Source of the DNA: Caldisericota bacterium
GTDB taxonomy: Bacteria > Caldisericota > JANLFM01
Assembly (NCBI GenBank): GCA_024655865.1
Contig: JANLFM010000011.1
Coordinates: 16,548 to 62,320, forward strand
DNA: 45,773 nt
Reading direction: 5' to 3'
In this document: positions 28,238 through 34,555 of the stretch, in pieces
How the letters are laid out: the number at the start of each line of letters is the position of its first letter
Position numbering within the stretch: the first letter of the stretch is position 1
Made by a program: the position numbers and the translations under genes
The notes under the pieces: generated by a model
The model's database searches: none
Seen by the model: only the letters and a program-made list of their open reading frames with translations
Told to the model about the DNA's origin: nothing

Positions 28238-28317
28238 GATTAAGATGGACCTGAATGTAAAAGCACTTGAGAGCCCTGTCAATTGGTATGGGAAAAGGGC
28301 TTCATCCCGGTGAAGCT

Positions 28318-28872
28318 ATGATTGTGGAAGTGATTCTTTCAACTTTGAGTTCAAATGGAGAGCCAAACTTTGCTCCTATGGGGGTCGTATGGGGGGAAGA
28401 GGAGATTACTGTGCGGCCCTTTAGAAACACCCAGACTTTCCGCAATTTAGTAGCCACAAAGTGCGGTGTAGCCTCTGTGACTGATGATGTGCTCGCCTTC
28501 GCACGCAGTGCCCTGGAGGACGCCTGCCTTCCACACTTTCCTGCGAGGTCCATACCAGGAATCGTTTTTCAGGGTTGTTGTTACTGGCGCGAGCTTGAAG
28601 TGATGGCTATCGAAGAAGGGGAGGAAAGGGCTGAGGTACACTGCCGGGTAGTGGAGAAAGGATGGCAGCGGGATTTTTTGGGCTTTAACAGAGCTCGGAA
28701 TGCGGTGATCGAGGCCGCAATCCTGGCAACTCGAATGAATTTAATCCCTCGGGAAGAGGCTTTAACACTTCTGGAACGATATGCCGAAATTGTGCGAAAG
28801 ACTGGAGATGAACCCGAAGGGGTGGCTTTTGAGCTCGTGCGCCAATACATTATAAAAGGAGGGAAAACATGA
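28318..28872 (+). CDS. DUF447 family protein, H4MPT-cluster associated
   Basis: A protein of 184 residues from ATG 28318 (the frame is open to TTG 28267, and ATG 28288 is an alternative). ATG 28318 is favoured by GGTGAAG and because MIVEVILSTL-NGEPNFAPMGV is the family start. It belongs to the DUF447 family, which has a flavin-reductase-like split-barrel appearance and is found in archaea and in bacteria with H4MPT genes. Its step is not established. The start of the RFAP synthase overlaps its stop (ATGA), a tight link to cofactor biosynthesis. RNAVIEAAILATRM near residue 130 is a conserved helix. It probably acts in pterin or flavin-dependent chemistry (inference). Confidence 0.8.
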   Translation: MIVEVILSTLSSNGEPNFAPMGVVWGEEEITVRPFRNTQTFRNLVATKCGVASVTDDVLAFARSALEDACLPHFPARSIPGIVFQGCCYWRELEVMAIEEGEERAEVHCRVVEKGWQRDFLGFNRARNAVIEAAILATRMNLIPREEALTLLERYAEIVRKTGDEPEGVAFELVRQYIIKGGKT

Positions 28873-29891
28873 CCGTCACGGTTAAGGCACCAGCCCGCCT
28901 CCATTTTGGTTTTCTCGATTTGAACGGCGAGCTGGGCCGGCTATACGGAAGCCTTGGCATGGCAATTGATCGCCCACAGGTCATTTTAAAGGGGGAACTG
29001 ATCGAAAAATCAAGGAGGAGCGAAATCGAGACCCGGTTCAAGGAAGCTCAATCAAGCGCAATAGGCCCCACAGAAGTGATAGTGATAGGAGAAAAAAAGG
29101 CAAGAGTGCTGACCTATGCGCGCAGGTTTCTGGAATGCTTTCCTTTGCCGGGAATCGTGTCTCTAAAGCTTGAGGAAACTATCCCGGCACACGTTGGTCT
29201 GGGTTCAGGAACACAGCTTTCCCTTGCAGTAGGCACGGCGCTAGCCCAATTAGCGGGGATAAAAACAAGTGTACAGGATCTGGCTTTGATTATGGGACGT
29301 GGTGTTCATTCAGGAATCGGTATTGGCACCTTTCAATACGGAGGATTTATCGTAGATGGAGGGCATGCGGTGGTCGAAAGTAACCCCAAAGTCCCCCCAA
29401 TTATATTTCAGCACCCTGTCCCGCGTTCCTGGATCCTCGTTATTGCCATTCCCTCAATAGAGCCCGGGTTCGCGGGCCTACGGGAAAAGCAGGCATTTCA
29501 ATCCTTACCCCCAGCACCTCCGTCCCTTCCTGAAAAAATCTGCCGATTGCTTCTTGTACAAATGTTGCCCGCACTGAAAGAAGAGAATCTCAAAAATTTC
29601 GCCCAGGCGCTCACGGTAATTCAGCAATTAGTGGGGGAATGTTTTGCTCCTGTCCAGGGGGGCCGCTTTGCTAATTCCGTATCCGCCGAGCTCATTGAGT
29701 ACTGGTTGGAGCAAGGAGTCTATGGCGCTGGTCAGAGCTCATGGGGTCCAACCGTGTATGCTCTGGTAGACGAAGAGGAGCAAGCGGCTGCCCTGTTAGA
29801 CTTAAGCAAGAAATGGCTGGCAAAACGTGGAGGTGGCGAGGTGTTCTTAGCCCGGTCAAACAACCAGGGCGCTTCTGTTATTGAAGGTTAA
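28869..29891 (+). CDS. mptG: beta-ribofuranosylaminobenzene 5'-phosphate synthase (beta-RFAP synthase)
   Basis: A 340-residue GHMP-fold enzyme. It joins 4-hydroxybenzoate or 4-aminobenzoate to PRPP with loss of carboxylate, the first committed step to the methanopterin side chain. Evidence: the opening VKAPARLHFGFLDLNG, the glycine-rich HVGLGSGTQLSLAVGTAL (about 113-130, the GHMP phosphate loop), GRGVHSGIGIGTF and GGFIVDGGH, all characteristic of RFAP synthase rather than other GHMP kinases. RFAP synthase is diagnostic for H4MPT-type cofactors; folate synthesis does not use it. It overlaps DUF447 and is followed by a 120-base gap with a consensus promoter for the HPPK-MptA gene. Confidence 0.92.
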   Translation: MTVTVKAPARLHFGFLDLNGELGRLYGSLGMAIDRPQVILKGELIEKSRRSEIETRFKEAQSSAIGPTEVIVIGEKKARVLTYARRFLECFPLPGIVSLKLEETIPAHVGLGSGTQLSLAVGTALAQLAGIKTSVQDLALIMGRGVHSGIGIGTFQYGGFIVDGGHAVVESNPKVPPIIFQHPVPRSWILVIAIPSIEPGFAGLREKQAFQSLPPAPPSLPEKICRLLLVQMLPALKEENLKNFAQALTVIQQLVGECFAPVQGGRFANSVSAELIEYWLEQGVYGAGQSSWGPTVYALVDEEEQAAALLDLSKKWLAKRGGGEVFLARSNNQGASVIEG

Positions 29892-29975: not shown

Positions 29976-30011
29976 CGATAAAAAGCTTATTTTAGCGGAT
30001 TGAGGAAAACA

Positions 30012-31472
30012 ATGACCGCATCTCATAAGGTCTATTTGGGCTTGGGTTCAAATCTGGGGGATCGTCAAAATAACATAATTCAGGCTTTACAGCAGTTGAA
30101 GTCCCAGGTATCAGTGGAGAAGGCTTCATCCTTTTACGAAACCGAGCCAGTGGGCTACCTGGACCAGCCACTTTTCATCAATGCCGTCTGCCTTGTCTCC
30201 ACGGATTTGACTCCTCAGGAGCTTTTTTCTTTCGTTAAAAGAATAGAGCGACGCATGGGGCGTCAACAAGCATTTCGGAATGCACCGCGCCCCATTGATA
30301 TCGATATCCTGTTCTATGATGACCTGGTCCTGGAGTCGCCAGAGCTCACAATACCTCACCCCAGCCTGCACCAGCGCGCTTTTGTCCTGGTTCCCTTAGC
30401 CGAAATTGCCCCCACACTCGTGCACCCGGTCCTGAAAAGCACAGTAGCTGAGTTGCTGGAAAAAGTTGACCCCAGAGGAGTGCGAAAGCTTTCTCGCAGT
30501 CTGCAATTATCCCTGGGACGGGATCTCCAGGAAACCGTTCCCTCTGTCCATGTCAGTTTAAGCCGGGTGGGGATCACCAATATGCAGCGCATTATTAGCC
30601 TGGCCAGCGATGGCGGGTGCAATCTTTTCTATACGAACCTGGAACTTTTTGTGGACCTGCCTCCCATGCAAATGGGCGCTCACATGTCGCGTTTCAGTGA
30701 CGCCCTGGAAGAAGTGGTGGATGAGGTAACAGCCCAAAAAGCGGCTAATGTTGAGTCTCTGGCTGAAGCAATTGCCCGGCAGATTGTGGAAAGACAGGGA
30801 GCAGTTCGCTCTGAAGTACGCCTTTACGCCAAATACCCAGTAGAAAAGATCACCCCTGTTTCCGCAAAAAGGACGCAAGAACTCTATTCACTGATCAGCA
30901 TAGCCGTTTACAATGGGAAAACCCTGAAAAGCATAATTGGAGTGGAGGCTGAGGGCATGACTGCATGCCCCTGTGCTCAGGATATGGTCCGGGATTACTC
31001 CAGGGAGCGGCTGCTGGAGGAAGGTTTTTCAGAAGAACAGGCCGAGAAGATCCTGGGGGCTATCCCCATTGCCTCACATAACCAGAGAGGGCGGGGAACC
31101 CTGCTTGTCGGATCGAAAGAACGGATTAGAGCAGAAGAGCTGGTGGAGATCGTGGAATCCTCCATGAGCTCCGAAACCTATAACCTGTTGAAGCGCCAGG
31201 ACGAGCTCTTTGTAGTTAATAAGGCCCATCGTAATCCCATGTTTGTGGAGGACGTGGTCCGCGAGATGCTCTATAACGTGGTAGAAACTTACCCCAATTT
31301 GCCCGATGACGCCTTCGTCTGGGCTAAACAGGTGAATTTTGAGGGGATCCACAAACACGACGTCTTTGCTGAAAGGTTCGGTACCCTGGGAGAAATCCGC
31401 AAGGAAGTCCTGGAGGGGCAGCATATCAGTAAACACACGACCCTGGAAGAATGGCTGAATACCGCAGAATAG
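30012..31472 (+). CDS. fusion: HPPK (FolK) - GTP cyclohydrolase MptA/FolE2-type
   Basis: A 486-residue fusion. Residues 1-165 are 6-hydroxymethyl-7,8-dihydropterin pyrophosphokinase: YLGLGSNLGDR, FYETEPVGYLDQPLFINA, FRNAPRPIDIDIL (metal-binding Asp pair) and IPHPSLHQRAFVLVPL. Residues about 174-486 are a COG1469 GTP cyclohydrolase: PSVHVSLSRVGITNMQ, VDLPPMQMGAHMSR, MTACPCAQDM (CPC at 319-321), SHNQRGRGTLL, VESSMSSETYNLL and KHDVFAERFGTLGE. CPCAQ and HNQRGRG match archaeal MptA rather than bacterial FolE2 (CPCSK, GAHNQRS). MptA makes 7,8-dihydroneopterin 2',3'-cyclic phosphate, so the fused domains act at the start and middle of one pathway. ATG 30012 is chosen over TTG 30000 by GAGG. Both domains look intact. 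Confidence 0.92.
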   Translation: MTASHKVYLGLGSNLGDRQNNIIQALQQLKSQVSVEKASSFYETEPVGYLDQPLFINAVCLVSTDLTPQELFSFVKRIERRMGRQQAFRNAPRPIDIDILFYDDLVLESPELTIPHPSLHQRAFVLVPLAEIAPTLVHPVLKSTVAELLEKVDPRGVRKLSRSLQLSLGRDLQETVPSVHVSLSRVGITNMQRIISLASDGGCNLFYTNLELFVDLPPMQMGAHMSRFSDALEEVVDEVTAQKAANVESLAEAIARQIVERQGAVRSEVRLYAKYPVEKITPVSAKRTQELYSLISIAVYNGKTLKSIIGVEAEGMTACPCAQDMVRDYSRERLLEEGFSEEQAEKILGAIPIASHNQRGRGTLLVGSKERIRAEELVEIVESSMSSETYNLLKRQDELFVVNKAHRNPMFVEDVVREMLYNVVETYPNLPDDAFVWAKQVNFEGIHKHDVFAERFGTLGEIRKEVLEGQHISKHTTLEEWLNTAE

Positions 31473-31574: not shown

Positions 31575-32096
31575 ATGAAAAAAATTGCCTGGGCGATTAC
31601 GGGAGCGGGCCATTTTCTTCAAGAATGTGCGGAATTGCTCACGAACTTGCCCAATGCAGATGTTTTTCTCTCAAAAGCGGCGGAGGAGGTCCTAAAAATG
31701 TACCGTCTGGAAGAGAAAGTCCTCCAGAGCGCGAGAGCCGTGATCCGGGATAGTATGGCCAGCGCGCCCATCGTGGGCAGGTTCTCCAGGGGAACCTACA
31801 ATGTTTTGGTGGTGGCCCCGGCCACTTCCAACTCCGTAGCTAAATTTGTCTATGGCATTGCAGATTCCCTGGTATCTAACCTGTTTTCCCAGGCGGGGAA
31901 ATCCCGGGTGCCTATCATAGTTCTTCCAACCGATGTAAAAGAAGAGGTGGACTCTCGAGGGCCTAAAGGCGATCTGGTCAAGGTCTATCCTCGGAACATC
32001 GACCTGGAAAATATTGAAAGGCTGAGCAAATTTTCAGGAGTAACGGTTGTGCGCAGCGTAGAGGAGCTGAAGAAATGCTTAAATATTTATTTGTAA
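31575..32096 (+). CDS. flavoprotein, DmrB/AfpA-like (putative dihydromethanopterin reductase)
   Basis: A 173-residue FMN-binding flavoprotein of the PF02441 superfamily. It opens KKIAWAITGAGHFLQECAELL, with SKAAEEVLKMY, then the flavin-binding YNVLVVAPATSNSVAKFVYGIADSL and VPIIVLPTD. Closest in pattern to archaeoflavoprotein AfpA and to DmrB, which reduces dihydromethanopterin to H4MPT using a redox partner. Its place between the MptA fusion and the dihydropteroate-synthase-like gene makes that last step the best guess (inference). Its last 22 bases overlap the next gene. No PPC-decarboxylase catalytic cysteine context is seen, so it is not a CoaC. Confidence 0.82.
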   Translation: MKKIAWAITGAGHFLQECAELLTNLPNADVFLSKAAEEVLKMYRLEEKVLQSARAVIRDSMASAPIVGRFSRGTYNVLVVAPATSNSVAKFVYGIADSLVSNLFSQAGKSRVPIIVLPTDVKEEVDSRGPKGDLVKVYPRNIDLENIERLSKFSGVTVVRSVEELKKCLNIYL

Positions 32097-33418
32097 CCGG
32101 AAAATTAGCCGCTGAAGCGCTTGCGGATACCTTATCAAAAATGGCCCCCGATTTCCAGTATGAGATCTCGGTTCTCCCCATTACCGTCGCTGCCTTGATG
32201 CAGCCTTCCTTCATAGCCAGGCACCTGTCCTCGGGAATCGATTATGACTACATTATGGTTCCAGGATGGGTTCGAGGAGATTTGAGCCTCGTGGAAGACA
32301 AAACAGGGTGCAAAGTTATAATAGGCCCCAAAGATCTCAAGGATATCCCTCTCTTTTTCGGGCGCTCGCGCCCGAGAGAGGGTTATGGAGAACACACCGT
32401 CAAGATATTCGCTGAGATTGTGGACGCTCCTCTCTTGAGCCTGGAAGAGATTCTGACTCGGGCGGAATATTATCGGTCAAGTGGCGCCGACATCATTGAC
32501 CTGGGGTGGCCGGCAGAAGGAAGCTTTGACAACGTAGAGGAGGTAATAACCGCTTTAAAGGAACGCGGTTTCGTAGTAAGCCTGGACACATTTCACAGGG
32601 AAGATATTTTGCGCGCAAATCGAGTGGGCTTTGATTACCTGCTCAGTGTAAATTCCTCCAATTTAGACCTCGTTCGCGAACTCTCCTGCACCGTTGTAGT
32701 TATCCCTGACTTTGGTGGAGGACTGGATTCCCTTGAACGCAACATAGCAAAACTCGAGGAATGGGGGGTACCTTACATCATTGATCCCATCATCAACCCT
32801 ATAAATTTCGGTTTCACCGAGTCCCTCTGTCAATTCCACGAAGTCCGCAGACGACATCCCACCGCTAAAATGCTGATCGGGGTGGGAAACATTACCGAGC
32901 TCGTGGATGCTGATAGCCTGGGCATCAATGTCCTTCTAATGGGAATAGTGAGTGAGTTGAACATCGACTACATTTTGACTACCGAGGTGATCAGCTGGGC
33001 AAAGGGTTCTGTGCGTGAATTAGACATAGCCCGGAAATTAATGCATTATTCCCGTAAGAACCAGATTTTGCCCAAGAACATAGATAATCGCTTGATCGCT
33101 CTTAAAGACATTCCCCACACTCATTTCACTGAGGAAGAACTGCGCCGTATCCAGAAAGAGATTCGGGATAGCAATTTCCGCATCTTCACGGACGAGGAAA
33201 AAATATATGTTTTTAACCGCGACCTTTTTATTACGGGAACGGACCCTGAAGAGATCTTTGTCCAGCTCAATGTTAAGGAAGCTTCCCACGCCTTTTATCT
33301 TGGCCGCGAGCTGGAAAGAGCAGCACTGGCAGTGCGTTTAGGGAAGAAGTATATTCAAGAAGAGCCCTTGCACTGGGGCTATCTGGGGTGGAATAACAAA
33401 ACAGGCAAGGATAGTTAA
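32075..33418 (+). CDS. DUF6513 / dihydropteroate synthase-like protein
   Basis: A 447-residue protein. Residues 1-120 are DUF6513 (YLFVTGKLAAEALADTL, VMVPGWVRGDL-like segment). Residues about 120-380 form a TIM barrel related to dihydropteroate synthase: ILTRAEYYRSSGADIIDLGW, VVSLDTFHREDILRANRVG, YIIDPIINPINFGF, MLIGVGNITELVDAD. This architecture (dihydropteroate-synthase-related, TIGR00284-like) occurs in methanogens and H4MPT bacteria and is thought to couple the dihydropterin diphosphate with the RFAP-derived arene. Conserved DHPS residues are only partly kept, so the reaction remains unproven. It overlaps the flavoprotein gene by 22 bases; the DUF1464 gene follows after 39 bases. Confidence 0.85.
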   Translation: MLKYLFVTGKLAAEALADTLSKMAPDFQYEISVLPITVAALMQPSFIARHLSSGIDYDYIMVPGWVRGDLSLVEDKTGCKVIIGPKDLKDIPLFFGRSRPREGYGEHTVKIFAEIVDAPLLSLEEILTRAEYYRSSGADIIDLGWPAEGSFDNVEEVITALKERGFVVSLDTFHREDILRANRVGFDYLLSVNSSNLDLVRELSCTVVVIPDFGGGLDSLERNIAKLEEWGVPYIIDPIINPINFGFTESLCQFHEVRRRHPTAKMLIGVGNITELVDADSLGINVLLMGIVSELNIDYILTTEVISWAKGSVRELDIARKLMHYSRKNQILPKNIDNRLIALKDIPHTHFTEEELRRIQKEIRDSNFRIFTDEEKIYVFNRDLFITGTDPEEIFVQLNVKEASHAFYLGRELERAALAVRLGKKYIQEEPLHWGYLGWNNKTGKDS

Positions 33419-33457: not shown

Positions 33458-34555
33458 GTGGAAAGAAAAGTGCGAGTAATCGGGGTTGATCCAGGAACTG
33501 TCAGTTTTGACGTCTGCGGGTTGGAAGACGACCAGGTGTTCTGCGATACTACCTTACCCACGGCCGAGGTAGGCGCTGCACCTCAACTTCTGGTTGAGTT
33601 CCTGAAATCAACCGCCCCTCTGGACTTTATTGTTGCTCCCTCGGGGTATGGCCTCCCGTGGGTAAACATTCAAGATTTTGGCCCTCGGGAACTCTTCCAA
33701 TATGTTCTGGTAGACAGTAAGGAGAGAAAACCGCCTTCCCTTTTAAAGGGGATGACCGAGATGATAAAACTCTTTAAGGAAACCGATCTTCCCGTGTACT
33801 TCATGCCAGGGGTCATCCACCTTCCCACCATCCCGGAGTACCGGAAAGTCAATAAAATCGATATGGGCACTGCGGATAAGCTCTGTTGCGCAGTACTCGG
33901 GGTTTTTGACCAGGCACGCCATTATGACATTCCCTACGAGAAGACTTCCTTTATCATGGTTGAAGTGGGCGGAGCTTACACAGCTGTAATGTGTGTTAGG
34001 GATGGTAAGATAATTGACGGTCTGGGAGGCACCTATACCAGCCTGGGGTATCTCTCCCTTGGGGCTATGGATTCTGAATTAGCCTACCTTTTGGGAAACT
34101 TCGATAAAGACGTCCTCTTTTCAGGAGGAGCGGCTTATGTGGCTGGCCGTCCCGATCTTACACCAGAGGACTTTGCCAGGCTCAGCCAGAGCGACGATCG
34201 GGTACGAATAGCCTGGGAAGCATTAATGGAGGGTGTGGTAAAATGCGTGCTCAAAGAGATGGCTGTCCTGCCAGAGCCCCGGGAAATTTTGCTCTCTGGC
34301 CGCTTATGTCGCACAGAACGGATACTTCAGGAGTTAAGGGAAAGATTGGCACGCTATGCCCCGGTGCGAAGAGTTGAAGGAATTGCGAAAGTTGCTAAGG
34401 AGGCTGCACAGGGAGCTGCCATTATAGCCAATGGCATGGCCGGAGGAAAATTTAAGGAACTGGTCGAGGTAATGGAGCTTAAGGGCGCAAAAGGAACATT
34501 GCTGGATCACCTCTACATAAAAGACACGAATCGTTTGCGAGAAAAGTATTTATAA
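33458..34555 (+). CDS. DUF1464 actin/sugar-kinase-fold protein, H4MPT-cluster associated
   Basis: A 365-residue protein of the acetate/sugar kinase-Hsc70-actin fold. PHOSPHATE-1 motif: VIGVDPGTVSFDVCGL at about 7-22. PHOSPHATE-2 region: MVEVGGAYTAVMCVRDGKI. Adenosine-loop region: ILLSGRLCRTERILQEL. The family (DUF1464) is mostly archaeal and has been called a predicted kinase, without biochemical proof. GTG 33458 follows a strong AGGAGGAGG. It is the last gene of the plus-strand cluster, so a kinase or ATP-dependent ligase-like step on a pterin or side-chain intermediate is possible (inference). Confidence 0.8.
   Translation: MERKVRVIGVDPGTVSFDVCGLEDDQVFCDTTLPTAEVGAAPQLLVEFLKSTAPLDFIVAPSGYGLPWVNIQDFGPRELFQYVLVDSKERKPPSLLKGMTEMIKLFKETDLPVYFMPGVIHLPTIPEYRKVNKIDMGTADKLCCAVLGVFDQARHYDIPYEKTSFIMVEVGGAYTAVMCVRDGKIIDGLGGTYTSLGYLSLGAMDSELAYLLGNFDKDVLFSGGAAYVAGRPDLTPEDFARLSQSDDRVRIAWEALMEGVVKCVLKEMAVLPEPREILLSGRLCRTERILQELRERLARYAPVRRVEGIAKVAKEAAQGAAIIANGMAGGKFKELVEVMELKGAKGTLLDHLYIKDTNRLREKYL

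Follow-up and report, generated by a model that had tools for sequence, protein, structure and literature searches.

GTP cyclohydrolase and the pyrophosphokinase HPPK (FolK) both belong to the pterin trunk which is common to folate and H4MPT. HPPK pyrophosphorylates hydroxymethyl-dihydropterin at the expense of ATP. The archaeal cyclohydrolase MptA is a stand-alone protein which depends on Fe2+ and forms dihydroneopterin 2',3'-cyclic phosphate, and MptB is a phosphodiesterase whose HD domain family is too general to be diagnostic. The committed step of H4MPT synthesis is catalysed by RFAP synthase (PMC8305020). The archaeal PTPS-III works in the same synthesis, perhaps on the monophosphate, and PTPS proteins with the CExxHGH motif are PTPS-I/III hybrids that can serve the folate and queuosine pathways (PMC5041015).

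In the Caldisericota DNA analysed here, a stretch of 45,773 nucleotides (the window), FolK and MptA were found in a single uninterrupted ORF at 30012-31472 on the + strand, encoding 486 aa counted from the ATG at 30012. The ATG is preceded by GAGG, the longest alternative start is the TTG at 30000, the stop is at 31472, and no internal stop or frameshift was detected across the ORF. The protein consists of an HPPK domain and an MptA-type GTP cyclohydrolase domain, both intact and joined by a linker. The HPPK domain with its catalytic residues was located at 30033..30413 (PF01288, TIGR01498, Foldseek), the end of the HPPK fold and the linker at 30414..30521, and the cyclohydrolase domain, of the COG1469 superfamily, at 30522..31409 (TIGR00294, FolE2 alignment, Foldseek). 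In Pfam, numbered from the TTG at 30000, HPPK covered residues 12-138 (1.1e-41) and GCHY-1 residues 175-457 (6.7e-67). The scores with the TIGR01498 folK and the TIGR00294 MptA equivalog models were 145.6 bits (cut-off 54.1) and 314 bits (cut-off 220), respectively, in agreement with the original prediction that both enzymes reside in one chain.

The HPPK motifs RPIDID and HPSLHQRAF are kept, and R93, D96, D98 and H116 correspond to R92, D95, D97 and H115 of the E. coli enzyme. A degenerate HPPK in the window protein was rejected due to the conservation of the catalytic motifs in the alignment. The MptA domain carries CPCAQ, an insertion of MptA length, HNQRGRG and FEGIHKH. The FolE2 equivalog model gave 147.5 bits, below its cut-off of 215; FolE2 proteins of the same phylum have CPCS in place of CPCAQ, and compared with FolE2 there are about 20 extra residues between the CPC and HNQRG motifs, an insertion found also in the stand-alone MptA of Halanaerobium. 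A FolE2 identity of the cyclohydrolase half was rejected on these grounds, as had been predicted. Of the two motifs taken initially as archaeal signatures, CPCAQ does mark the MptA side, together with the insertion and the HMM scores, whereas HNQRG occurs in FolE2 relatives too and is not diagnostic on its own. The AlphaFold2 model (mean pLDDT 81, pTM 0.58) contained two folded domains and a weak linker, with the confidence falling to about 55 at residues 161-180 counted from the ATG. At this pTM, the mutual arrangement of the two domains cannot be relied on. In Foldseek, the HPPK domain matched solved HPPKs with a TMt of about 0.9 and the MptA domain matched GCYH-IB with 0.75-0.80. Judged by the conserved residues, the fusion is predicted to have both HPPK and GTP cyclohydrolase activities, although the cyclohydrolase may yield a product other than the cyclic phosphate of MptA.

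The gene is situated in an H4MPT-biosynthesis operon, all on the + strand. It is preceded by genes for a DUF447 protein (28267..28872; PF04289/PF20766) and a beta-RFAP synthase family protein (28869..29891), which scored 209 bits with TIGR00144 (cut-off 113.5) and stayed below the stricter equivalog NF040726 (240 vs 328). It is followed by a flavoprotein like dihydromethanopterin reductase DmrB/AfpA (31575..32096), scoring 134 bits with TIGR02700 and 132 bits with TIGR02699, under the curated cut-offs of both; by a DHPS-like protein with DUF6513 and a pterin-binding domain (32075..33418; PF20123; TIGR00284 231 bits, cut-off 256.7), which is a candidate for the enzyme that couples the pterin with RFA-P; and by a DUF1464 kinase-like protein (33458..34555), linked to H4MPT genes also in genomes G054 and G056. 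The congener G050 has the same operon order and the same outer flanks, with the fusion 84-85% identical. The host genome G000 is a 1.82-Mb draft of 63 contigs and 96% completeness (congener, 98%). Its contig C11 encodes DUF2193, MtdB, an ATP-grasp protein, FwdD, FwdB, FwdA, Ftr, FwdC and Mch, as well as a RimK-like ligase and a CitG-like protein; the H4MPT-using enzymes Mch, Ftr and Fwd are present as a C1 pathway, fwdDBA-ftr-fwdC-mch with mtdB.

Several neighbours of these genes were recorded. The gene after citG on C11 (L120:1723-2748) has relatives in G056 and G054, where they adjoin the genes for the flavoprotein, the DHPS-like protein and DUF447, and is a candidate H4MPT-biosynthesis gene; the linkage of DUF1464 is similar. 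DUF2193 (L119:10201-11742 on C11; also L121, L124, L125, L126) was linked to H4MPT genes in each of the five H4MPT bacteria checked, directly adjoining mtdB in some, and Fae was detected in none of the five; DUF2193 may be a C1-entry enzyme of the pathway. A second Mch paralogue lies near mtdB, on the opposite strand, in G056 (L123, 18595-19536, +), and two Mch matches were obtained in G054 (L125 and a fragment on L252).

The fused HPPK was the only one found in G000, which also encodes FolE and FolP (adjacent on C10) and FolB (C60). A second folK could have been missed, the genome being a draft of the completeness given above; the congener likewise showed only one HPPK. In the genomes of the sister genera (G051, G052, G053), folK comes after folB or forms one gene with it; prmC lies beside them, and so does a glycosyltransferase gene where the stretch extends to it. 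The syntenic site of G000 and G050 still has folB, prmC and this glycosyltransferase gene; folK is gone, and no remnant of it was detectable there by tblastn. The grouping of the fused HPPK with the native FolK of the sister genera was rejected (AU p 0.034), and its nearest neighbours in the tree were other fused HPPKs. As the sole HPPK, with the native folK lost from its syntenic site, the fused domain probably feeds both FolP and the DHPS-like enzyme, serving folate and H4MPT in this genus. Most simply, the native kinase would have become superfluous once the fusion had come in. With FolE present, G000 has another GTP cyclohydrolase besides the MptA half.

The explanation which we hold with good confidence is a bifunctional enzyme of the pterin trunk, shared here by H4MPT and folate, which would have arisen in or near Chloroflexota, been transferred and replaced the native folK. 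The C-terminal MptA domain would open GTP to dihydroneopterin phosphate, a separate enzyme (FolB in this host; for most Chloroflexota, a PTPS with CExxHGH) would cleave the side chain, and the N-terminal HPPK domain would pyrophosphorylate 6-hydroxymethyl-dihydropterin. For H4MPT, the product would be taken up by the DHPS-like protein encoded in the operon; as the search revealed no further HPPK, FolP would draw on it as well to make folate. The architecture, operon, gene inventory and synteny were read from the sequence; from them we infer the activities, the dual use and the direction of transfer. The original prediction of a first step joined to a later one was borne out, these being steps 1 and 3. 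Its folate/methanopterin hybrid is correct in that a folate-type FolK, the only HPPK of the genome, stands in an H4MPT operon, but not as a union of two rival routes, the trunk being one and shared.

A fusion working for H4MPT only, with folate made through another, unrecognised HPPK or taken up from outside, would suit its position in the H4MPT operon, apart from folE-folP. We regard it as improbable: FolE, FolB and FolP are all encoded, the native folK has disappeared from its syntenic place and the sole HPPK is the fused one. Furthermore, folate or another pterin is the only possible use of the fusion in those Chloroflexota that lack Mch.

The distribution bears on the opposite possibility. 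An MptA-type protein was found in 19 of the 400 sampled Chloroflexota genomes, with HPPK in front in 17 of the 19, as open frames of 482-578 aa; the remaining two genes (G271, G223) are broken in frame. The further carriers are two Caldisericota species and one termite-gut bin, the fusion being restricted to one genus of the host phylum (54 genomes). In every fusion genome searched, the fused HPPK was the only full one; G055 has an additional 40-residue HPPK piece at a contig end. The fusion is not a single occurrence (17/400 Chloroflexota besides the other carriers); a description of the FolK-MptA architecture was not found in the open-access literature, consistent with the initial view that it is undescribed.

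In most hosts FolP is present and Mch is absent, and on account of the missing Mch the fusion probably works for folate there. Seven Chloroflexota (G127, G207, G109, G118, G167, G217, G359) combine the fusion with a clear FolP; neither FolE nor Mch was detected in them, the fusion being their sole HPPK and sole detected GTP cyclohydrolase I, and likely their entry to folate. FolE accompanies the fusion in G409 and G175; the FolE match of G323 was weak only. The many hosts with FolP and no Mch would favour a folate enzyme throughout, with the H4MPT-operon location incidental, which we consider even less probable than a purely H4MPT role. The linkage to H4MPT genes is conserved in G000, G050, G054 and G056, four genomes which represent two phyla: G056 carries fwdDBA-ftr-fwdC-mch-rimK-citG-[folK-mptA]-PTPS in a single run, and in G054 the order is mch-rimK-citG-fusion-PTPS. 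Halanaerobium has the operon order of G056 with an unfused mptA at the same position and folP-folB-folK further on, and in G000 folate is already covered by FolE. The Halanaerobium congolense contig NZ_SOEF01000010.1 (L126, L190) holds an H4MPT-type biosynthesis and C1 cluster. Since folP-folB-folK follow mptA and no FolE was detected in Halanaerobium, its MptA probably feeds folate too.

For the middle step, the fusion genomes searched have FolB (G000, G050, G217, G359) or a PTPS. The PTPS motif was CExxHGH, as CERLHGH or CERIHGH, in every case read next to the fusion as well as in the majority of Ktedonobacterales. The PTPS gene lies directly 3' of the fusion in G054, G055, G056, G057 and G062, placing the three-step trunk on two adjacent genes. 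In Chloroflexota, the fusion and the adjacent PTPS might form a channelled unit from GTP to hydroxymethyl-dihydropterin pyrophosphate, with MptA re-tuned to a linear phosphate cleaved directly by PTPS. We put this forward tentatively and find it rather doubtful; if true, one fused protein would stand at the folate/H4MPT branch point and neither a separate phosphodiesterase nor a dihydroneopterin aldolase would be needed.

The termite-gut bin (G057, titled Betaproteobacteria; genome 1.5 Mb) carries the fusion at L247 349-1800 (-), with intact MptA motifs. Its HPPK has NxD in place of DxD and altered basic residues nearby, by which the domain has likely lost its kinase function. A general arrangement in which one half is dead or regulatory and the other works alone would find a precedent there, but is very unlikely: the MptA motifs do not vary among the aligned fusions, and the HPPK motifs are kept in those that are intact, the window protein included.

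Frame breaks were seen in G223 (L194), G271 (L195) and the G054 fusion (L003/L252), the last with an in-frame TAG inside the HPPK part; in these draft assemblies both error and decay are possible. That an assembly or frameshift artefact joined two genes, as the breaks and the 63-contig draft might suggest and as the original prediction had allowed, is hardly credible, since the same fusion occurs in the congener operon and in independent assemblies, Chloroflexota included, across two phyla, and GC3 is even over both halves of the window gene.

The fusion would have arisen in Chloroflexota or close to them, within an H4MPT operon of the order mch-rimK-citG-mptA; horizontal transfer would have brought it to the Caldisericota genus, where it would have replaced the native folK. 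In the MptA tree, built without archaeal MptA sequences, all MptA-type rows were separated from FolE2 (100/100) and the two Caldisericota sequences grouped together; the position of this pair among Chloroflexota was poorly resolved. For the fused HPPK domains taken together, a common origin was neither shown nor rejected (AU p 0.28). The restriction to one genus and the closeness to Chloroflexota sequences suggest a transfer into Caldisericota, which gives its presumed direction.

The archaeal-type MptA is likely a working bacterial enzyme, and in some Chloroflexota (Ktedonobacterales and others) the fusion is apparently the sole route into folate. One kinase is likely the point shared between two C1 cofactors. 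The division of the pterin supply in bacteria making folate and H4MPT, and the actual product of bacterial MptA, are accessible to testing. Caution is advisable in annotation, as such fusion genes may be labelled simply FolK or FolE2.

Compared with the described systems, the fusion shares with the MptA of M. jannaschii (MJ0775) a TIGR00294 score over the cut-off, CPCAQ, the MptA-length insertion and the metal-site motifs; in contrast to the archaeal enzyme, it is bacterial and sits behind an HPPK domain. With FolE2/GCYH-IB (N. gonorrhoeae, 3d2o), the MptA half has the superfamily fold and catalytic motifs in common, but it differs in its score under the FolE2 cut-off, the insertion and CPCAQ instead of CPCS. 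The complete domain, catalytic residues and fold (TMt ~0.9) of FolK/HPPK from E. coli and S. aureus are shared, whereas the partner is a cyclohydrolase and not FolB or FolP, the usual fusion partners of FolK. In FolB-FolK and HPPK-DHPS (FolK-FolP) fusions HPPK is likewise joined to another pathway enzyme; those join neighbouring steps, while here step 2 is left to a separate protein. The methylotroph H4MPT (fhc/mch) clusters have RFAP synthase, DUF447, Ftr, FwdABCD, Mch and MtdB genes in common with this host, in which MptA with fused FolK stands in for a separate cyclohydrolase and no Fae was found. The parts are known; their combination and shared use appear to be new.
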